A DNA stretch of 64,000 nt from Mycobacterium sherrisii (GTDB lineage Bacteria; Actinomycetota; Actinomycetes; Mycobacteriales; Mycobacteriaceae). The translations under genes and the position numbers were made by a program. Positions within the stretch are counted from its first letter, which is position 1; every line of letters starts with the position of its first letter. The notes below the pieces were generated by a model. That model searched no databases. It was not told where the DNA came from and saw nothing but the letters and a program-made list of their open reading frames with translations. The stretch is from NCBI RefSeq assembly GCF_002102355.1, contig NZ_LQPT01000040.1:1-64000 (forward strand). Direction: 5' to 3'. Positions 218 through 52,216 of this stretch are shown piece by piece.

Positions 218-745
218 TCAGACTCGGCGGCGTTCCCGTTCGGCGGCGAGCTCGGCAAGAACGACCTCGCAGGCTAGGTTCTGGCTGTAACCGCGGCGGG
301 TCAGCAGGCCCACCAGCCGGCGGGTGATCCGCGCCTCATCGTTGCCGTCGCCGCTGAGCGCCTCGCGGCGCAGCTTGGCCCGGACCAGTTCTTCGGCCCG
401 CTCTCGCTCGGCGGTCGCGTCGATGTCGGCCAGCGCCGCGGCGATGACCTCTTTGCCGACGCCTTTGGTGTGCAGCTCGGCAGCCAACGCCCGCTTGCTT
501 TTTCCCGCCCTGGAATGCCCCGACCGCACCCACTGTTCCGCGAAATCCCGGTCGTCCACGAGCCCGACGGCGGTCAGCCGGTCGAGCACGCGCGCACTGA
601 CGTCGCCGGGGTATCCGCGCTTGGCCAGCTGATCGGACAGCTCGGCCCGGGTACGCGACCTCGCGGTGAGCAGGCGCAGGCACAACGCCCGTGCCTGCTC
701 TTCGCGGGCGGGCTCAGAAGTCGACGGGGGCTGGCAAGACGTCAT
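218..745 (-). CDS. recX: RecX, regulator of RecA
   Basis: 175-residue RecX family protein, built of repeated three-helix modules, which binds RecA filaments and limits RecA recombinase and ATPase activity. The sequence is Arg/Ala-rich and helical and ends in a basic tail (ERERRRV), as in other mycobacterial RecX proteins. The start lies inside recA: the two frames overlap by about 32 bp, the usual mycobacterial arrangement, which implies translational coupling and a single SOS-induced transcript. A second in-frame ATG lies at 748; the inner one was chosen because it matches the M. tuberculosis N-terminus as I remember it. Confidence 0.93.
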
Positions 746-1754
746 CATCGGTCACCACCGCACCAATGCCGAGCTTCTCCTTGATCTTCTTTTCGATCTC
801 GTTGGCGATGTCGGCGTTCTCCATCAGGAAGTTGCGGACGTTCTCCTTGCCCTGCCCGAGCTGCTCGCCCTCGTAGGTGAACCAGGAACCGGACTTGCGG
901 ATGAAGCCCTGGTCCACGCCCATGTCGATCAGCGAGCCTTCCCGGCTGATGCCCCGGCCGTAGAGAATGTCGAACTCGGCCTGCTTGAACGGCGGCGACA
1001 CCTTGTTCTTGACGACCTTGACCCGGGTGCGGTTACCCACCGCGTTGGTGCCGTCCTTGAGCGTCTCGATCCGGCGCACGTCCATGCGCACCGACGCGTA
1101 GAACTTCAAGGCCTTTCCACCCGTGGTGGTTTCCGGGCTGCCGAACATCACCCCGATCTTCTCGCGAAGCTGGTTGATGAAGATCGCCGTGGTTCCCGAA
1201 TTGTTGAGCGCGCCAGTCATTTTCCGCAGCGCCTGGCTCATCAGCCGGGCCTGCAGACCGACGTGGCTGTCACCCATCTCGCCCTCGAGTTCCGCGCGCG
1301 GCACCAGTGCGGCCACCGAGTCGATGACCAGGATGTCCAGCGCACCGGAGCGGATCAGCATGTCGGCGATCTCCAGGGCCTGCTCGCCGGTGTCCGGCTG
1401 GCTGACCAGCAGCGAATCGGTGTCGACGCCGAGCTTCTTGGCGTAATCCGGGTCCAGGGCATGCTCGGCGTCGATGAACGCAGCGACGCCGCCGGCCGCC
1501 TGGGCGTTGGCCACCGCATGCAGCGCGACGGTCGTCTTACCCGAGGACTCCGGGCCGTAGATCTCCACGACCCGGCCGCGCGGCAGGCCGCCGATGCCCA
1601 GGGCCACGTCCAGCGCGATGGATCCGGTCGGGATGACCGAGATCGGCTGCCGCATCTCGTCGCCGAGACGCATCACCGAGCCTTTGCCGTAGCTCTTTTC
1701 GATCTGGGCCATCGCCAGTTCGAGAGCCTTCTCGCGGTCGGGGGCTTGCGTCAT
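714..1754 (-). CDS. recA: Recombinase RecA, without intein
   Basis: 346-residue RecA, the ATP-dependent strand-exchange protein and co-protease for LexA cleavage. The Walker A motif GPESSGKTT lies at about residues 67-75, and the loop with [19 protein letters not shown] is intact. M. tuberculosis and M. leprae RecA are interrupted by an intein; here the reading frame is continuous at normal RecA length, so no intein is present. The ATG at 1754 is preceded by an AGGAGAGG ribosome binding site. recX follows with an overlap. The upstream region carries a LexA box and a PafBC-type promoter, giving the two-track DNA-damage control known for mycobacterial recA. Confidence 0.98.
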
Positions 1755-1857: not shown

Positions 1858-1873
1858 CCGAACACCTGTTCGA
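1858..1873. promoter_or_regulatory. LexA (SOS) box between recA and the riboswitch gene
   Basis: The 16-mer CCGAACACCTGTTCGA matches the mycobacterial SOS box TCGAAC-N4-GTTCGA at all but its first base. It is palindromic and sits about 104 bp upstream of recA, just ahead of the PafBC-type promoter. It is also only some tens of bases upstream of the cobalamin riboswitch on the other strand, so LexA bound here could affect both divergent units. Confidence 0.8.
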
Positions 1874-1889
1874 TTCAAGTTCGACACGC

Positions 1890-2035
1890 CGCTCGTGTGG
1901 CAACATCGGCTACCGAAAAAGGGCGGCGACGGGCCCGCGTTCACGCTGAGGAAACCGGTGCGAATCCGGTGCGGTCCCGCCACTGTGATCGGGCACTTCC
2001 CACCCGAGAGCCAGATACTCACCGTCGGCGCCTGC
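1890..2035 (+). promoter_or_regulatory. Cobalamin (B12) riboswitch
   Basis: The conserved core of a cobalamin aptamer is readable: GAGGAAACCGGTGCGAATCC at 1948-1967, then GCGGTCCCGCCACTGTGA at 1970-1987, then the B12-box-like GAGCCAGATACTC at 2008-2020. Outer limits are approximate. A GC-rich hairpin and ribosome binding site lie immediately downstream, followed by the FhuF-like gene at 2084. In mycobacteria such riboswitches are known before metE and a PPE-cob operon; the gene controlled here is different. Confidence 0.88.
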
Positions 2036-2045
2036 TCACCAGACA

Positions 2046-2070
2046 CCGGGGCGGATCTCCCCGGGGAGGG
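2046..2070 (+). promoter_or_regulatory. Candidate expression-platform hairpin overlapping the ribosome binding site
   Basis: CCGGGG (2046-2051) can pair with CCCCGG (2059-2064) across a 7-nt loop. The 3' arm shares bases with the purine-rich GGGGAGGG (2063-2070), which is the only plausible ribosome binding site for the ATG at 2084. This arrangement fits riboswitch control of translation by sequestering the binding site. It is an inference from pairing alone. Confidence 0.5.
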
Positions 2071-2083
2071 CGGTCGCACAGGC

Positions 2084-2767
2084 ATGGACATCTCGGGCGA
2101 GCTTGCCCAAATAGCTTCGTACAAAGGGTTTTTCGCCTTACCGGTGGGCGGCACCGCGAACGGATGGCATCCGGTCCGACGGGACTACGACGCCGGCTTC
2201 GCCGATTTGATCGATGCCACCGCCCGCCGCTACCGCACCGGCGATCTACGGATCGCCGCCTCGCTGGTGCAGCTGGGCCATGCCAGCCGGTTGTGGTCAC
2301 CGGCGCTGGCCTGCGCGGTGGCCCACCACGTCGTCCCGAACCTGGAACAGCTCGACCGCGCCGACGACGGGGCGCGGCTGCGCCTACCCGAGCCCGTCGG
2401 ACAGGCCGTTTCCGCCGACCCCGACGCCGCGGCGAGGGCGCTGTACGACGCCGTGGTGCGGCAACACCTGCAGCCGTTGGCGGCCGGGTTGCGGGTCAAG
2501 CTGGCCCCGGGGCTGCTGGCCGGCAACCTCGGGTCCGCCCTCGCCGGCGCAGCGCGAGCGCTGCTCTCGGCACGGCCGGACCTGCGCGGGCCGATCCTGC
2601 AGATCACCGACTCGCTGCTGAACACCGGCGTGCTGTCGGGCACCGGTGTCGTCACCGACGCGCATCTGGGCTTCCGGCGCGGCAGCTGCTGCCTGTTCTA
2701 TCGGCTGCCGGGGCAATCCGTCTGCGCCGACTGCGTGTTTCGGGCGCACGGGTCGGCCCGTTGGTGA
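2084..2767 (+). CDS. FhuF-like [2Fe-2S] protein under B12 riboswitch control
   Basis: 227 residues. The C-terminus carries Cys202, Cys203, Cys214 and Cys217, the CC-x10-C-x2-C pattern of the FhuF family of ferric-siderophore reductases, which binds an unusual [2Fe-2S] cluster. The N-terminal two thirds is helical and resembles the IucA/IucC/FhuF-like fold only loosely. No signal peptide or membrane segment is seen, so it is probably cytosolic. The start is the first ATG after the riboswitch; the frame is open much further upstream, but that part overlaps the aptamer. In M. tuberculosis this place holds only the small Cys-containing Rv2737A, possibly a remnant. Regulation suggests a role in cobalt or corrinoid reduction or uptake rather than iron, but this is inference. 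Confidence 0.82.
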   Translation: MDISGELAQIASYKGFFALPVGGTANGWHPVRRDYDAGFADLIDATARRYRTGDLRIAASLVQLGHASRLWSPALACAVAHHVVPNLEQLDRADDGARLRLPEPVGQAVSADPDAAARALYDAVVRQHLQPLAAGLRVKLAPGLLAGNLGSALAGAARALLSARPDLRGPILQITDSLLNTGVLSGTGVVTDAHLGFRRGSCCLFYRLPGQSVCADCVFRAHGSARW

Positions 2768-2788: not shown

Positions 2789-2983
2789 TCACCACTGGTC
2801 GCGGGGCACGTCGAAGTCGACGCACAACGCCCGCCAGACCTCACGCGGGTCGACGCCATCCTCGATCGCCTGCGCGGCGGTCCGGCCGCCGAAATCCGCC
2901 AGCACGTGATCGACCAGCACCGATGCGCCGTAAGCGGCACCGAAGCGCAACACCACCCGTTCGTTGAACTCCGTCAGACGCAC
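2789..2983 (-). CDS. DUF3046 family protein
   Basis: 64-residue acidic protein beginning MRLTEFNERV, typical of DUF3046, a short actinobacterial family found beside recA. It corresponds by order to Rv2738c. The length is normal for the family, and no catalytic motif or membrane segment is seen. The function is unknown. It lies between the FhuF-like gene (convergent) and the glycosyltransferase gene upstream on the same strand, with a 22-bp gap that suggests one transcript. Confidence 0.85.
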   Translation of the reverse strand: MRLTEFNERVVLRFGAAYGASVLVDHVLADFGGRTAAQAIEDGVDPREVWRALCVDFDVPRDQW

Positions 2984-5477: not shown

Positions 5478-6305
5478 TTACTGGCCGAACGGCTTCTCGG
5501 CGACCTGGCCGCCGGCGCCCTCGGCGGAAGCGGGAGTGGCCGGCGTCGCGCCGGGAGCGCCTGCCCCGCCGGTCGGCAGGGCCTCGCCGCGCATCGACGC
5601 CCGGATCTGTTCGAGGCGGGAATGGCCGGCCATCTGCACGCTGGCCTGCTGAACCTCGAGCATGCGGCCCTGCACCGAGCCCTGGGCTAGTTCGGCCGCC
5701 CCGACCGCGTTGGCGTAGCGGCGTTCGATCTTGTCGCGCACCTCGTCGAGGCTGGGCGTGTTGCCCGGCGCGGCGATCTCGCTCATCGAGCGCAGCGACG
5801 CGCTGACCTGTTCCTGCATCTTGGCCTGCTCGAGCTGGCTGAGCAGCTTGGTTCGCTCGGCGATCTTCTGCTGCAGCACCATCGAGTTCTGCTCGACGGC
5901 CTTCTTCGCTTGCCCGGCGGCCTGCAGCGCCTGGTCGTGCAGGGCCTTGAGGTCTTCAACGCCCTGCTCGGCGGTCACCAGCTGGGCCGCGAACGCCTCG
6001 GCAGCGTTGGTGTACTCGGTGGCCTTGGCGGCGTCGCCGGCCGCGGTGGCCTGGTCGGCCAGTGTCAGTGCCTGACGCACGTTGACCTGAAGCTTCTCGA
6101 TGTCGGCGAGCTGCCGGTTGAGCCGCATCTCCAGTTGCCGCTGGTTGCCGATCACCTGCGCGGCCTGCTGGGTCAGCGCCTGGTGGGTGCGCTGCGCTTC
6201 CTCGATGGCCTGCTGGATCTGGACCTTCGGGTCGGCGTGCTCGTCAATCTTCGCGTTGAACAGCGCCATGACGTATTTCCACGCTTTGACGAACGGATTG
6301 GCCAT
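5478..6305 (-). CDS. pspA: Phage-shock protein A homologue (35-kDa antigen)
   Basis: 275 residues of the PspA/IM30/Vipp1 family: an almost continuous coiled coil from about residue 25 to 220, starting [20 protein letters not shown] with an amphipathic N-terminal helix that binds stressed membrane. The C-terminal tail is Ala/Gly/Pro-rich and low in complexity. It assembles on damaged membrane and holds ClgR in check. Corresponds to Rv2744c. It lies between clgR and pspM on one strand. Confidence 0.96.
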
Positions 6306-6418
6306 GAGTTAGCTCCACCTTCGGTTCTGTGTACTCAAGGACCCCCGATAGGCCCCAGCGATCACCTTGTCGCCCAATTTATCGGGTCGGCGCCCTTCGC
6401 CCTACCCTTAACGGGCAC

Positions 6419-6736
6419 TCAGGCCACCGCAAGCGAGGCCACCGGCGGGATGACCACCTTGGTGCTGGCGTCGATGTTCGCCGCGCCGGAGGCGGCGCGC
6501 TCCTCAATCGCCATCCGCTCACCGGCGTCGGTGAGCACGGTCGACAGCGGGACGTCCAGAGCGTCGCAGATGGCATTGAGCAGCTCGCTGGAGGCTTCTT
6601 TGCGGCCGCGCTCCACTTCCGAGAGGTAGCCGAGGCTCACCCGCGCCGTGTCCGACACCTCGCGCAGCGTCCGGCCCTGCGAGGTGCGGGCCACGCGCAG
6701 CACCTCGCCGATGACTTCGCGCACCAGTGGCGGCAT
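6419..6736 (-). CDS. clgR: ClgR, Clp protease and psp operon activator
   Basis: 105-residue Cro/CI-type helix-turn-helix regulator ([20 protein letters not shown] as the DNA-binding core). It activates clpP1P2, clpC and its own clgR-psp operon during envelope stress. The C-terminus ends in SLAVA, the hydrophobic tail through which ClgR is itself degraded by Clp protease. The ATG at 6736 has an AAGGAG site 8 nt upstream; an ATG at 6751 lies on top of that site and is less likely. Confidence 0.93.
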
Positions 6737-6798
6737 TCTGCTCTCCTTCATCTCCAGCGCCGAGCGCCTTCACTCCGCTCAACGCCGGCCGCCGGGGT

Positions 6799-7398
6799 CT
6801 AGGTTCCCGTCCGGCGAATTTCCCTGACGGTCGAAGCGACATAGTCGATTCCGGTGACGACCGTTAGCACGATCGCGGCGCCCATCACCACCGAGGCCGC
6901 CGTCAGCAATGCGCCCGGCAGAGCATCCAAAGGCAGCACGAACAACCCGATCGCCACCGCCTGGACGAAAGTCTTGAGTTTGCCGCCCCAGCTGGCCGGG
7001 ATGACGCCGCGGCGAATCACGGCCAGCCGCAACAACGTCACCCCGATCTCGCGGACCAGGATCAGCACCGTGACCCACCAGGGCAGTTCGGCCAGCATCG
7101 ACAGGCCCACCAGCGCGGACCCGATCAGCATTTTGTCGGCGATCGGATCGACGAACGCGCCGAATTCGGTCGCCATGCCGTAGTTGCGGGCCAGCAGGCC
7201 GTCCAACCGATCGGTGACACATGCCACCGCGAACACCACGAAAGCCACGATGCGGGCGACGGTTTCGTGGCCGCCCCCGGCAAACAACGCGAGCAGGAAG
7301 ATCGGCACCAGTACGAGCCGCAGCAGCGTCAGGACGTTGGCCAGGTTGGCGATGCTGACACGTCCTGCCGCAGGTCCAGTCTGCGGCTGCCCCGACAC
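6799..7398 (-). CDS. pgsA3: CDP-alcohol phosphatidyltransferase (PgsA-type)
   Basis: 199-residue integral membrane enzyme with the complete CDP-alcohol phosphotransferase motif, D-x2-DG-x2-AR-x8-G-x3-D-x3-D (DRLDGLLAR followed by GAFVDPIAD). It joins a CDP-diacylglycerol phosphatidyl group to an alcohol, probably glycerol-3-phosphate for phosphatidylglycerol and cardiolipin synthesis. About four to six hydrophobic helices are seen. The GTG at 7398 gives a normal N-terminus; a longer frame to 7470 would run into argA. Corresponds to Rv2746c. Confidence 0.9.
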   Translation of the reverse strand: MSGQPQTGPAAGRVSIANLANVLTLLRLVLVPIFLLALFAGGGHETVARIVAFVVFAVACVTDRLDGLLARNYGMATEFGAFVDPIADKMLIGSALVGLSMLAELPWWVTVLILVREIGVTLLRLAVIRRGVIPASWGGKLKTFVQAVAIGLFVLPLDALPGALLTAASVVMGAAIVLTVVTGIDYVASTVREIRRTGT

Positions 7399-7454
7399 CG
7401 CATCAGAATAACGGTTGACCAGCGCAACCGCCCCGGATGTCAATACTGTTACCC

Positions 7455-7973
7455 GTGACCCAAAGCCCACGGGGAAGCCAGCAGGTTGTCGTCCGGCGTG
7501 CCCGGACCTCCGACGTCCCCTCGATCAAGCACCTCGTCGACACCTACTCGGGCAAGATCCTGTTGGAGAAGGCCCTGGTGACGCTGTACGAGGCGGTCCA
7601 GGAGTTCTGGGTTGCCGACCTGGACGGCGCGGTGGTCGGCTGCGGCGCGTTGCACGTGTTCTGGTCGGATCTCGGCGAGATCCGCACCGTCGCGGTCGAT
7701 CCCTCGGTCACCGGCCACGGGGTCGGCCACGCCATCGTCACCAAGCTGATCGAGGTGGCCCGCGAACTGCAGCTGCAGCGGATCTTCGTGCTCACCTTCG
7801 AGACGGAGTTCTTCGGCAAGCACGGGTTCACCGAGATCGAGGGCACCCCGGTGACCGCCGAGGTGTTCGAGGAGATGTGCCGCTCCTACGACATCGGTGT
7901 CGCCGAGTTCCTGGACCTCAGCTACGTCAAGCCGAACATCCTCGGCAACACCCGGATGCTACTCAAGCTCTAG
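7455..7973 (+). CDS. argA: N-acetylglutamate synthase, GNAT type
   Basis: 172-residue GNAT acetyltransferase corresponding to Rv2747, the short stand-alone N-acetylglutamate synthase that starts arginine biosynthesis. The acetyl-CoA loop is VTGHGVGHAIVTKL, at about residues 86-99. The GTG at 7455 was chosen because the conserved VVRRARTSDVPSIKHLVDTY begins about 11 residues later; an ATG at 7437 is possible. It is divergent from pgsA, with 56 bp between the starts, and ends just ahead of a palindromic repeat. Confidence 0.92.
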   Translation: MTQSPRGSQQVVVRRARTSDVPSIKHLVDTYSGKILLEKALVTLYEAVQEFWVADLDGAVVGCGALHVFWSDLGEIRTVAVDPSVTGHGVGHAIVTKLIEVARELQLQRIFVLTFETEFFGKHGFTEIEGTPVTAEVFEEMCRSYDIGVAEFLDLSYVKPNILGNTRMLLKL

Positions 7974-51900: not shown

Positions 51901-52216
51901 GGGTGTCCGTACAGCCTCTCTGGGTTATTCAGCTATTTCGCGTCGTCATGCGCGAGTACCCCGAGAGCTACCCGAGAGGAGAGTCTGAATGCGGCTACGG
52001 CCGTCGATCGAAGCAGCCGACCTGCCCCAGATCCGGAGAGCCCGGCTGCCACTACCGAAGACCGCCCGATGCAGACTGGGCTGCTCTGACGAACAGGCGT
52101 AGTGACACGCTGGAACGGAACGCGCGGATCTGCGCGGACCGCACCGTTTGCTCGGGCCAGACGGCCCAGAACGCTCTTACTCTACACGGGCGAACGTCGC
52201 CCGACGGAACCGTGCG
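51901..52216 (-). other. rpsO-gpsI spacer, 316 bp
   Basis: No gene is supported here, although one plus-strand frame stays open across it. It holds the gpsI leader and promoter region. A short hairpin, GGGCGA (52188-52193) with TCGCCC (52197-52202), lies 15 nt beyond the rpsO stop codon on the minus strand and could terminate or process the rpsO transcript. PNPase leaders are autoregulated in other bacteria; no specific element is recognised here. Confidence 0.4.

Follow-up and report, generated by a model that had tools for sequence, protein, structure and literature searches.

Several proteins are known to reduce cobalamins, CobR and PduS among them, and together with BtuM they share the job that we propose here for a FhuF-like protein, the reduction of corrinoid cobalt; we take BtuM, CobR and PduS to be proteins distinct from it. 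According to passages of a 2025 review of M. tuberculosis cobamides (PMC12713380), BtuM reduces corrinoid cobalt with decyanation, and in M. tuberculosis BtuM is missing and the decyanation step is unconfirmed; FhuF does not occur anywhere in that review. E. coli FhuF is described, in part of another paper, as a ferrisiderophore reductase (PMC7689651). We analysed a 64,000-nt stretch of Mycobacterium sherrisii DNA (the window), in which a cobalamin riboswitch precedes a FhuF-like gene, whereas the riboswitch targets given for M. tuberculosis in the same review passages are metE, ppe2 and rpfB (PMC12713380). The riboswitch and the FhuF fold are themselves of known kinds. Within the open-access PMC literature searched, no link between FhuF and cobalamin control was found, and searches with FhuF and ferric iron reductase returned no FhuF-type protein for cobalamin reduction; most subscription journals lay outside this scope, so priority is unproven.

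The fhuF-like gene lies between a divergent recA and a small gene on the opposite side, for which we presume the name Rv2738c (Table 1). A recX-like frame, seen by eye, is located to the left of recA on the reverse strand. The open reading frame list and the Rfam scan placed fhuF alone behind the riboswitch, with no btuFCD at the window locus, and hence outside any riboswitch-controlled btuFCD operon there. This setting is shared by the mycobacterial orthologs: among the best 80 of at least 553 confirmed relatives, which comprise 48 mycobacterial recA-site orthologs and 32 others and are hereafter the named loci, recA adjoins 47 of the 48 orthologs, the last (L096) being on a short contig that carries the Rv2738c-like neighbour, and an Rv2738c-like gene was matched beside 46 of the 48 (not L100 or L113).

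Table 1. Features of the riboswitch-fhuF locus, in window coordinates
Feature	Position	Strand	Basis or remark
recA, divergent neighbour, locus marker	714..1754	-	ORF and Pfam RecA; start at 1754
Palindrome CGAAC-N4-GTTCG, LexA/SOS-type box, between recA and the fhuF leader	1859..1872		Exact pattern match
Cobalamin riboswitch aptamer	1913..2040	+	Rfam RF00174, 53.1 bits, E 2.2e-10
Aptamer loop L5 GGTCC, 5' kissing-loop partner	1973..1977	+	Pairs with 2053-2057
Expression-platform hairpin (P13-like) CCGGGG-CGGATCT-CCCCGG	2046..2064	+	Sequence; loop 2052-2058
Ribosome-binding sequence GGGGAGGG	2063..2070	+	Sequence; AGAGAGG-like in relatives
fhuF-like gene	2084..2767	+	ATG at 2084, stop ends at 2767, 227 aa
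Small Rv2738c-like gene, locus marker on the opposite side	2789..2983	-	ORF

The first-pass annotation had claimed a cobalamin aptamer core and a hairpin able to mask the ribosome binding site, and both were borne out. The RF00174 match spans model positions 1-189 and clears the gathering cut-off of 31.5 bits. The pentamer GGATC inside the hairpin loop is complementary to L5, and the 3' arm of the hairpin shares two bases with the ribosome-binding sequence, so that the leader agrees with RF00174 riboswitches in its aptamer core, its L5-L13 kissing loop and its hairpin at the ribosome-binding site. By the Rfam end, 44 nt separate the riboswitch from the gene. The fold energy of 1913-2100 alone was no better than that of shuffled sequences (z -0.34, with 70 of 200 shuffles as good). 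Because single-sequence fold energy was unremarkable, an alignment was used as evidence, composed of 30 leaders from Mycobacterium, Mycolicibacterium, Streptomyces, Actinomadura, Streptosporangium and kin. Across these 30 leaders, pairing is seen in 100% of cells for the kissing loop, in 96.1% for the hairpin and in only 68.7% for the outer helix, and the closing pair of P4 is A-U in 14 leaders and G-C in 15. A similar platform, in which GGGG-CGGAUYU-CCCC precedes a purine-rich stretch, was found in leaders of Mycobacterium, Mycolicibacterium, Streptomyces, Actinomadura, Nonomuraea, Spongiactinospora and Streptosporangium. Compared with the Streptomyces and Actinomadura fhuF leaders, the window aptamer is of a short form from which their long arm is absent.

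The encoded protein carries a [2Fe-2S]-type motif, C202 C203 x10 C214 x2 C217. The cysteine pattern CC-x10-C-x2-C noticed at first reading was thereby confirmed: all four residues are invariant across 54 aligned relatives, and FhuF_C (PF11575) scored 33.6 bits against a cut-off of 20.5. The FhuF main domain PF06276 fell below its threshold (16.1 bits against 25.2). The predicted structure has a FhuF-like fold, and a VIA-align comparison ranked E. coli FhuF (PDB 7qp5) first, at 12% identity to the window protein. A profile search against PDB sequences also retrieved 7qp5 (E 6e-8); single-sequence phmmer against the same sequences gave one chance-level match only, and Foldseek alone found no PDB match at E 0.001, with the synthetase IucC at the top of its list. 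Identification as FhuF thus stood for cluster motif and fold and failed for the siderophore-iron reductase equivalog model TIGR03951 (22.2 bits against 63.85). The dN/dS of the window gene was 0.31-0.49 against six orthologs, and 0.21-0.31 in five closer pairs; the gene is under constraint, though not strong constraint. In-frame stops flagged in four of the 30 fetched orthologs (L020, L027, L030 and L031) proved by eye to be natural stops just after the last cysteine, and these genes are not broken.

Motif and fold are what would be expected of an ordinary ferric-siderophore reductase that stands behind a riboswitch by chance. The equivalog score speaks against this explanation, which we consider quite unlikely, and the relatives of the window protein, unlike E. 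coli FhuF, are linked to B12 in their neighbourhoods, as described below.

The pairing of riboswitch and FhuF-like gene was sought across Mycobacterium, and it recurs. Neither a missing covariance-model hit nor absence of the pair from all related species, either of which would have refuted the first-pass annotation, was thus observed. Two models were available for this, Rfam RF00174 and our model R1, which was partly derived from recA-site leaders; R1 matches at the recA site therefore lean on themselves, and the Rfam matches are independent of that. By R1, a riboswitch with E below 1e-8 precedes the gene in 28 of the 48 recA-site orthologs among the named loci (best 80 of at least 553), weak traces are found in two (L103 and L126), and in the other 18 nothing matches at E up to 1. 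Where a riboswitch is present at the recA site, 38-69 nt separate it from the gene. In a separate genus sample, FhuF relatives were present in 99 of 148 genomes. Of the best 30 matches in this sample, with the window among them, 15 carry an upstream riboswitch that exceeds the Rfam cut-off, and the number rises to 18 when E up to 1 is admitted. Three aptamer-less leaders (L013, L018 and L022) retain both aptamer ends, which by eye is the mark of a deletion. In a quick tree supported by SH-aLRT only, the riboswitch is absent from early-branching recA-site rows (gordonae, asiaticum, helveticum, attenuatum, persicum and ostraviense) and present in a 39-row clade with several losses within it; the history of the recA-site riboswitch may accordingly have involved either early loss or later gain.

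Since the 18 orthologs without a riboswitch and the two with a trace keep the gene, B12 control is dispensable at those loci. The same 20 of 48 named orthologs (best 80 of at least 553) could also mean that the recA-site gene is a dispensable remnant of a vanishing B12-uptake operon with little present function, and four genomes (L169-L172) in which the copy next to recA is partial or broken point the same way, a picture that assembly faults could also give. Retention of the four cysteines in 54 of 54 aligned relatives, a dN/dS of less than 0.5 in all 11 pairs, and an intact aptamer core and kissing loop in the window all argue against decay, and we regard a remnant of this kind as very improbable.

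Outside the recA site, the riboswitch-fhuF pair often belongs to a transport operon. Among the 32 non-recA relatives in the best 80 of at least 553 (Streptomyces, Actinomadura, Mycolicibacterium and others), a same-strand riboswitch lies upstream in 27 and is absent in five (L134, L149, L154, L157 and L161). Between riboswitch and fhuF, 18 of these 27 have btuF, btuC and btuD, and eight have no btu match; the order is btuF-btuC-btuD-fhuF in 17 of the 18 and btuC-btuD-btuF-fhuF in L133, with fhuF last in all. In Mycolicibacterium brisbanense the four operon genes overlap end to start, Pfam identified a periplasmic binding protein, a FecCD permease and an ABC ATPase, and a CobW protein and a nitroreductase-family gene lie near the operon. 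The window locus thus shares with the BtuFCD-type B12 transporter operons of Actinomycetota a riboswitch leader of one type and, unlike them, has a solitary fhuF beside recA. In Actinomadura sp. J1-007 (L158:4637-6645), only btuF and btuC remnants separate riboswitch and fhuF; this is a further point for the remnant explanation. B12 and siderophore ABC transporters form one family whose members are hard to distinguish, as stated in part of an earlier study (PMC2667541), which favours a siderophore reductase to that extent.

Several of these loci showed other features. In L134, L149 and L157, fhuF has neither riboswitch nor btuFCD and by eye lies directly behind genes for alternative (zinc-regulated) ribosomal protein-like products, and a full operon stands behind similar ribosomal protein-like genes in Mycolicibacterium L135. 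In Actinomadura craniellae, a small cysteine-containing open reading frame (L132:2408-2767) with no Pfam match is first after the riboswitch of a btuFCD-fhuF operon.

We then considered mycobacterial FhuF paralogs of about 25-42% identity, for which 20 regions were picked by hand from the genus sample. A same-strand upstream riboswitch at the Rfam cut-off was identified in 12 of these hand-chosen regions. In seven of the 20, FhuF and a B12-type transporter ATPase occupy one open frame as an apparent fusion (L066, at 5718-7463, L068, L073, L074, L078, L079 and L083); four of the seven were checked with Pfam (L066, L068, L073 and L079), and five carry a riboswitch at the Rfam cut-off (all except L068 and L078). 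In L065 (7393-8901, reverse), one of the 12, the riboswitch is followed by a mycobacterial-type methylenetetrahydrofolate reductase gene, with FhuF 725 nt downstream. Four further paralogs (L072, L076, L081 and L082) lie without a riboswitch inside adenosylcobalamin-dependent diol dehydratase clusters, which encode the large and medium dehydratase subunits and a reactivase, together with a cobalamin adenosyltransferase in L072 and an HbpS-like protein in L076. No B12-related match was found in two of the 20 regions (L070 and L080).

A sample that was not chosen for B12 was drawn from the class. FhuF was found in 36 of 118 class genomes by profile search, and 32 outside the genus were taken, one locus each. 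Pfam was run on 11 of these loci, the remaining 21 being assigned by the profile search; FhuF_C passed in nine of the 11 (L179, L180, L183, L186, L192, L193, L200, L207 and L210), L208 passed PF06276 only, and L209 had no Pfam match at all. Counting both strands, Rfam identified 12 cobalamin riboswitches in nine of the 32 loci, and 11 of the 12 exceed the cut-off. The same search gave 133 riboswitches in about 202.5 Mb (rounded sizes of the same genomes), a density that predicts 0.24 for the 0.368 Mb of loci, so that the excess is about fiftyfold; the related genomes are not independent, so computed probabilities overstate the enrichment. With this caveat, the excess counts against a siderophore reductase placed behind a riboswitch by chance. 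R1 identified a riboswitch in 11 of the 32 loci, and 21 had none by R1 or Rfam. Most of the riboswitches in these loci serve neighbouring genes, and riboswitch and fhuF form one same-strand unit only in L179, L192 and L207, the last including btuFCD.

The neighbours in this sample also bear on a cobalt-supply role, in which the reductase would act on Co(III) chelates or siderophore-like carriers to free their cobalt, and B12 control would mirror cobalt demand. FhuF-fold proteins act on metal chelates. Pfam CbtA, a putative cobalt transporter, adjoins FhuF in at least six class loci (L183, L187, L188, L192, L197 and L202), and in L192 (4459-6414, reverse) a riboswitch identified by R1 only is followed by cbtB, cbtA and fhuF, with cbtA and fhuF overlapping. 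Against this reading, the btuFCD operons and ATPase fusions that follow cobalamin riboswitches speak for corrinoids, and FhuF paralogs occur in diol dehydratase clusters, whose enzyme needs the finished cofactor and not free cobalt. We therefore judge cobalt supply to be unlikely. Other Pfam neighbours were a chelatase and CobO in L180, CobN and ribonucleotide reductase in L200, and CbiJ/CobK in L182; by eye, FhuF lies near glycogen-like genes in L184, L186 and L195.

Elsewhere in the window genome, cobalamin riboswitch matches number three, at metE, at the fhuF leader and at cbtB-cbtA, the last being weak and below the Rfam cut-off (24.9 bits; L166:4360-5523, contig C82). A separate riboswitch-controlled btuFCD was considered for this genome and rejected, because there are only these three matches and the lone FecCD operon lies elsewhere. 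No riboswitch precedes its sole FecCD permease, which matches a BtuC at 156 bits, where the operon relatives score much higher. One ABC_membrane_2 protein, of what we take to be the family of BacA-like B12 importers, and CbiC/CobH were also identified, and in this genome the FhuF-like protein would act on cytoplasmic corrinoids.

On these observations, the protein is probably a corrinoid Co(III) reductase made under B12 scarcity. Plentiful B12, presumably as the cofactor, would bind the aptamer, and the L5-L13 kissing loop would then lock the hairpin and hide the ribosome-binding site; when B12 is scarce, fhuF would be translated. The translational metE riboswitch in passages of the 2025 review (PMC12713380) is the analogy from which we expect B12 to shut translation off. 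The cytoplasmic FhuF-fold protein, with a putative [2Fe-2S] cluster, may accept an electron from a donor of the ferredoxin or flavin type and use it to bring corrinoids that are incoming or oxidised from Co(III) to Co(II), a step that would also free an upper ligand such as cyanide. The resulting corrinoids would be usable by adenosyltransferase and methionine synthase.

A role in corrinoid or cobalt acquisition had been guessed from the window, and it gained support from the riboswitch-btuFCD-fhuF operons, the ATPase-FhuF fusions, the riboswitch-cbtB-cbtA-fhuF unit and the FhuF genes in diol dehydratase clusters. The presence of relatives in B12-uptake, cobalt-uptake and B12-enzyme clusters suggests that the family may help cells to reduce B12 for use. 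Redox chemistry of corrinoid cobalt is common to B12 transport, de novo synthesis and diol dehydratase, and its reduction is the reading that covers most of the gene contexts. The transport operons alone could suit a siderophore-type reductase and cbtBA a cobalt reductase; we prefer corrinoid reduction because the diol dehydratase clusters use finished cofactor. More tentatively, we propose that among the FhuF-fold [2Fe-2S] proteins of Actinomycetota there is a widespread corrinoid reductase family, with cobalt reduction and possibly decyanation in B12 uptake, in de novo synthesis (beside CobN, CobO and CbtBA) and in diol dehydratase reactivation, which would fill the reductase step of mycobacterial B12 assimilation. 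Counting against corrinoid reduction by the window protein, decyanation in M. smegmatis was argued in 2021, in the part of that paper concerned, to need no dedicated enzyme (PMC8088520). The described ferrisiderophore reductase activity of E. coli FhuF, the recA-site orthologs and class-sample loci that lack a riboswitch, the glycogen-like neighbours, the two paralog regions free of B12-related matches and the low BtuC score of the window genome's FecCD permease count against it as well. How imported B12 is reduced and decyanated in actinobacteria could be put to a direct test with this candidate, which is conserved, is linked to a B12 riboswitch and has a structural relative already solved. 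Corrinoid reduction would also caution annotators that the name FhuF need not imply iron.

Finally, the palindrome between recA and the fhuF leader, which we take to be a LexA box, was also noticed by eye in other leaders. As this SOS-type palindrome sits between both genes, fhuF may have DNA-damage control in common with recA. Far from this locus, an Actino-pnp RNA was identified on the reverse strand of the window (51996-52066, 55.9 bits).
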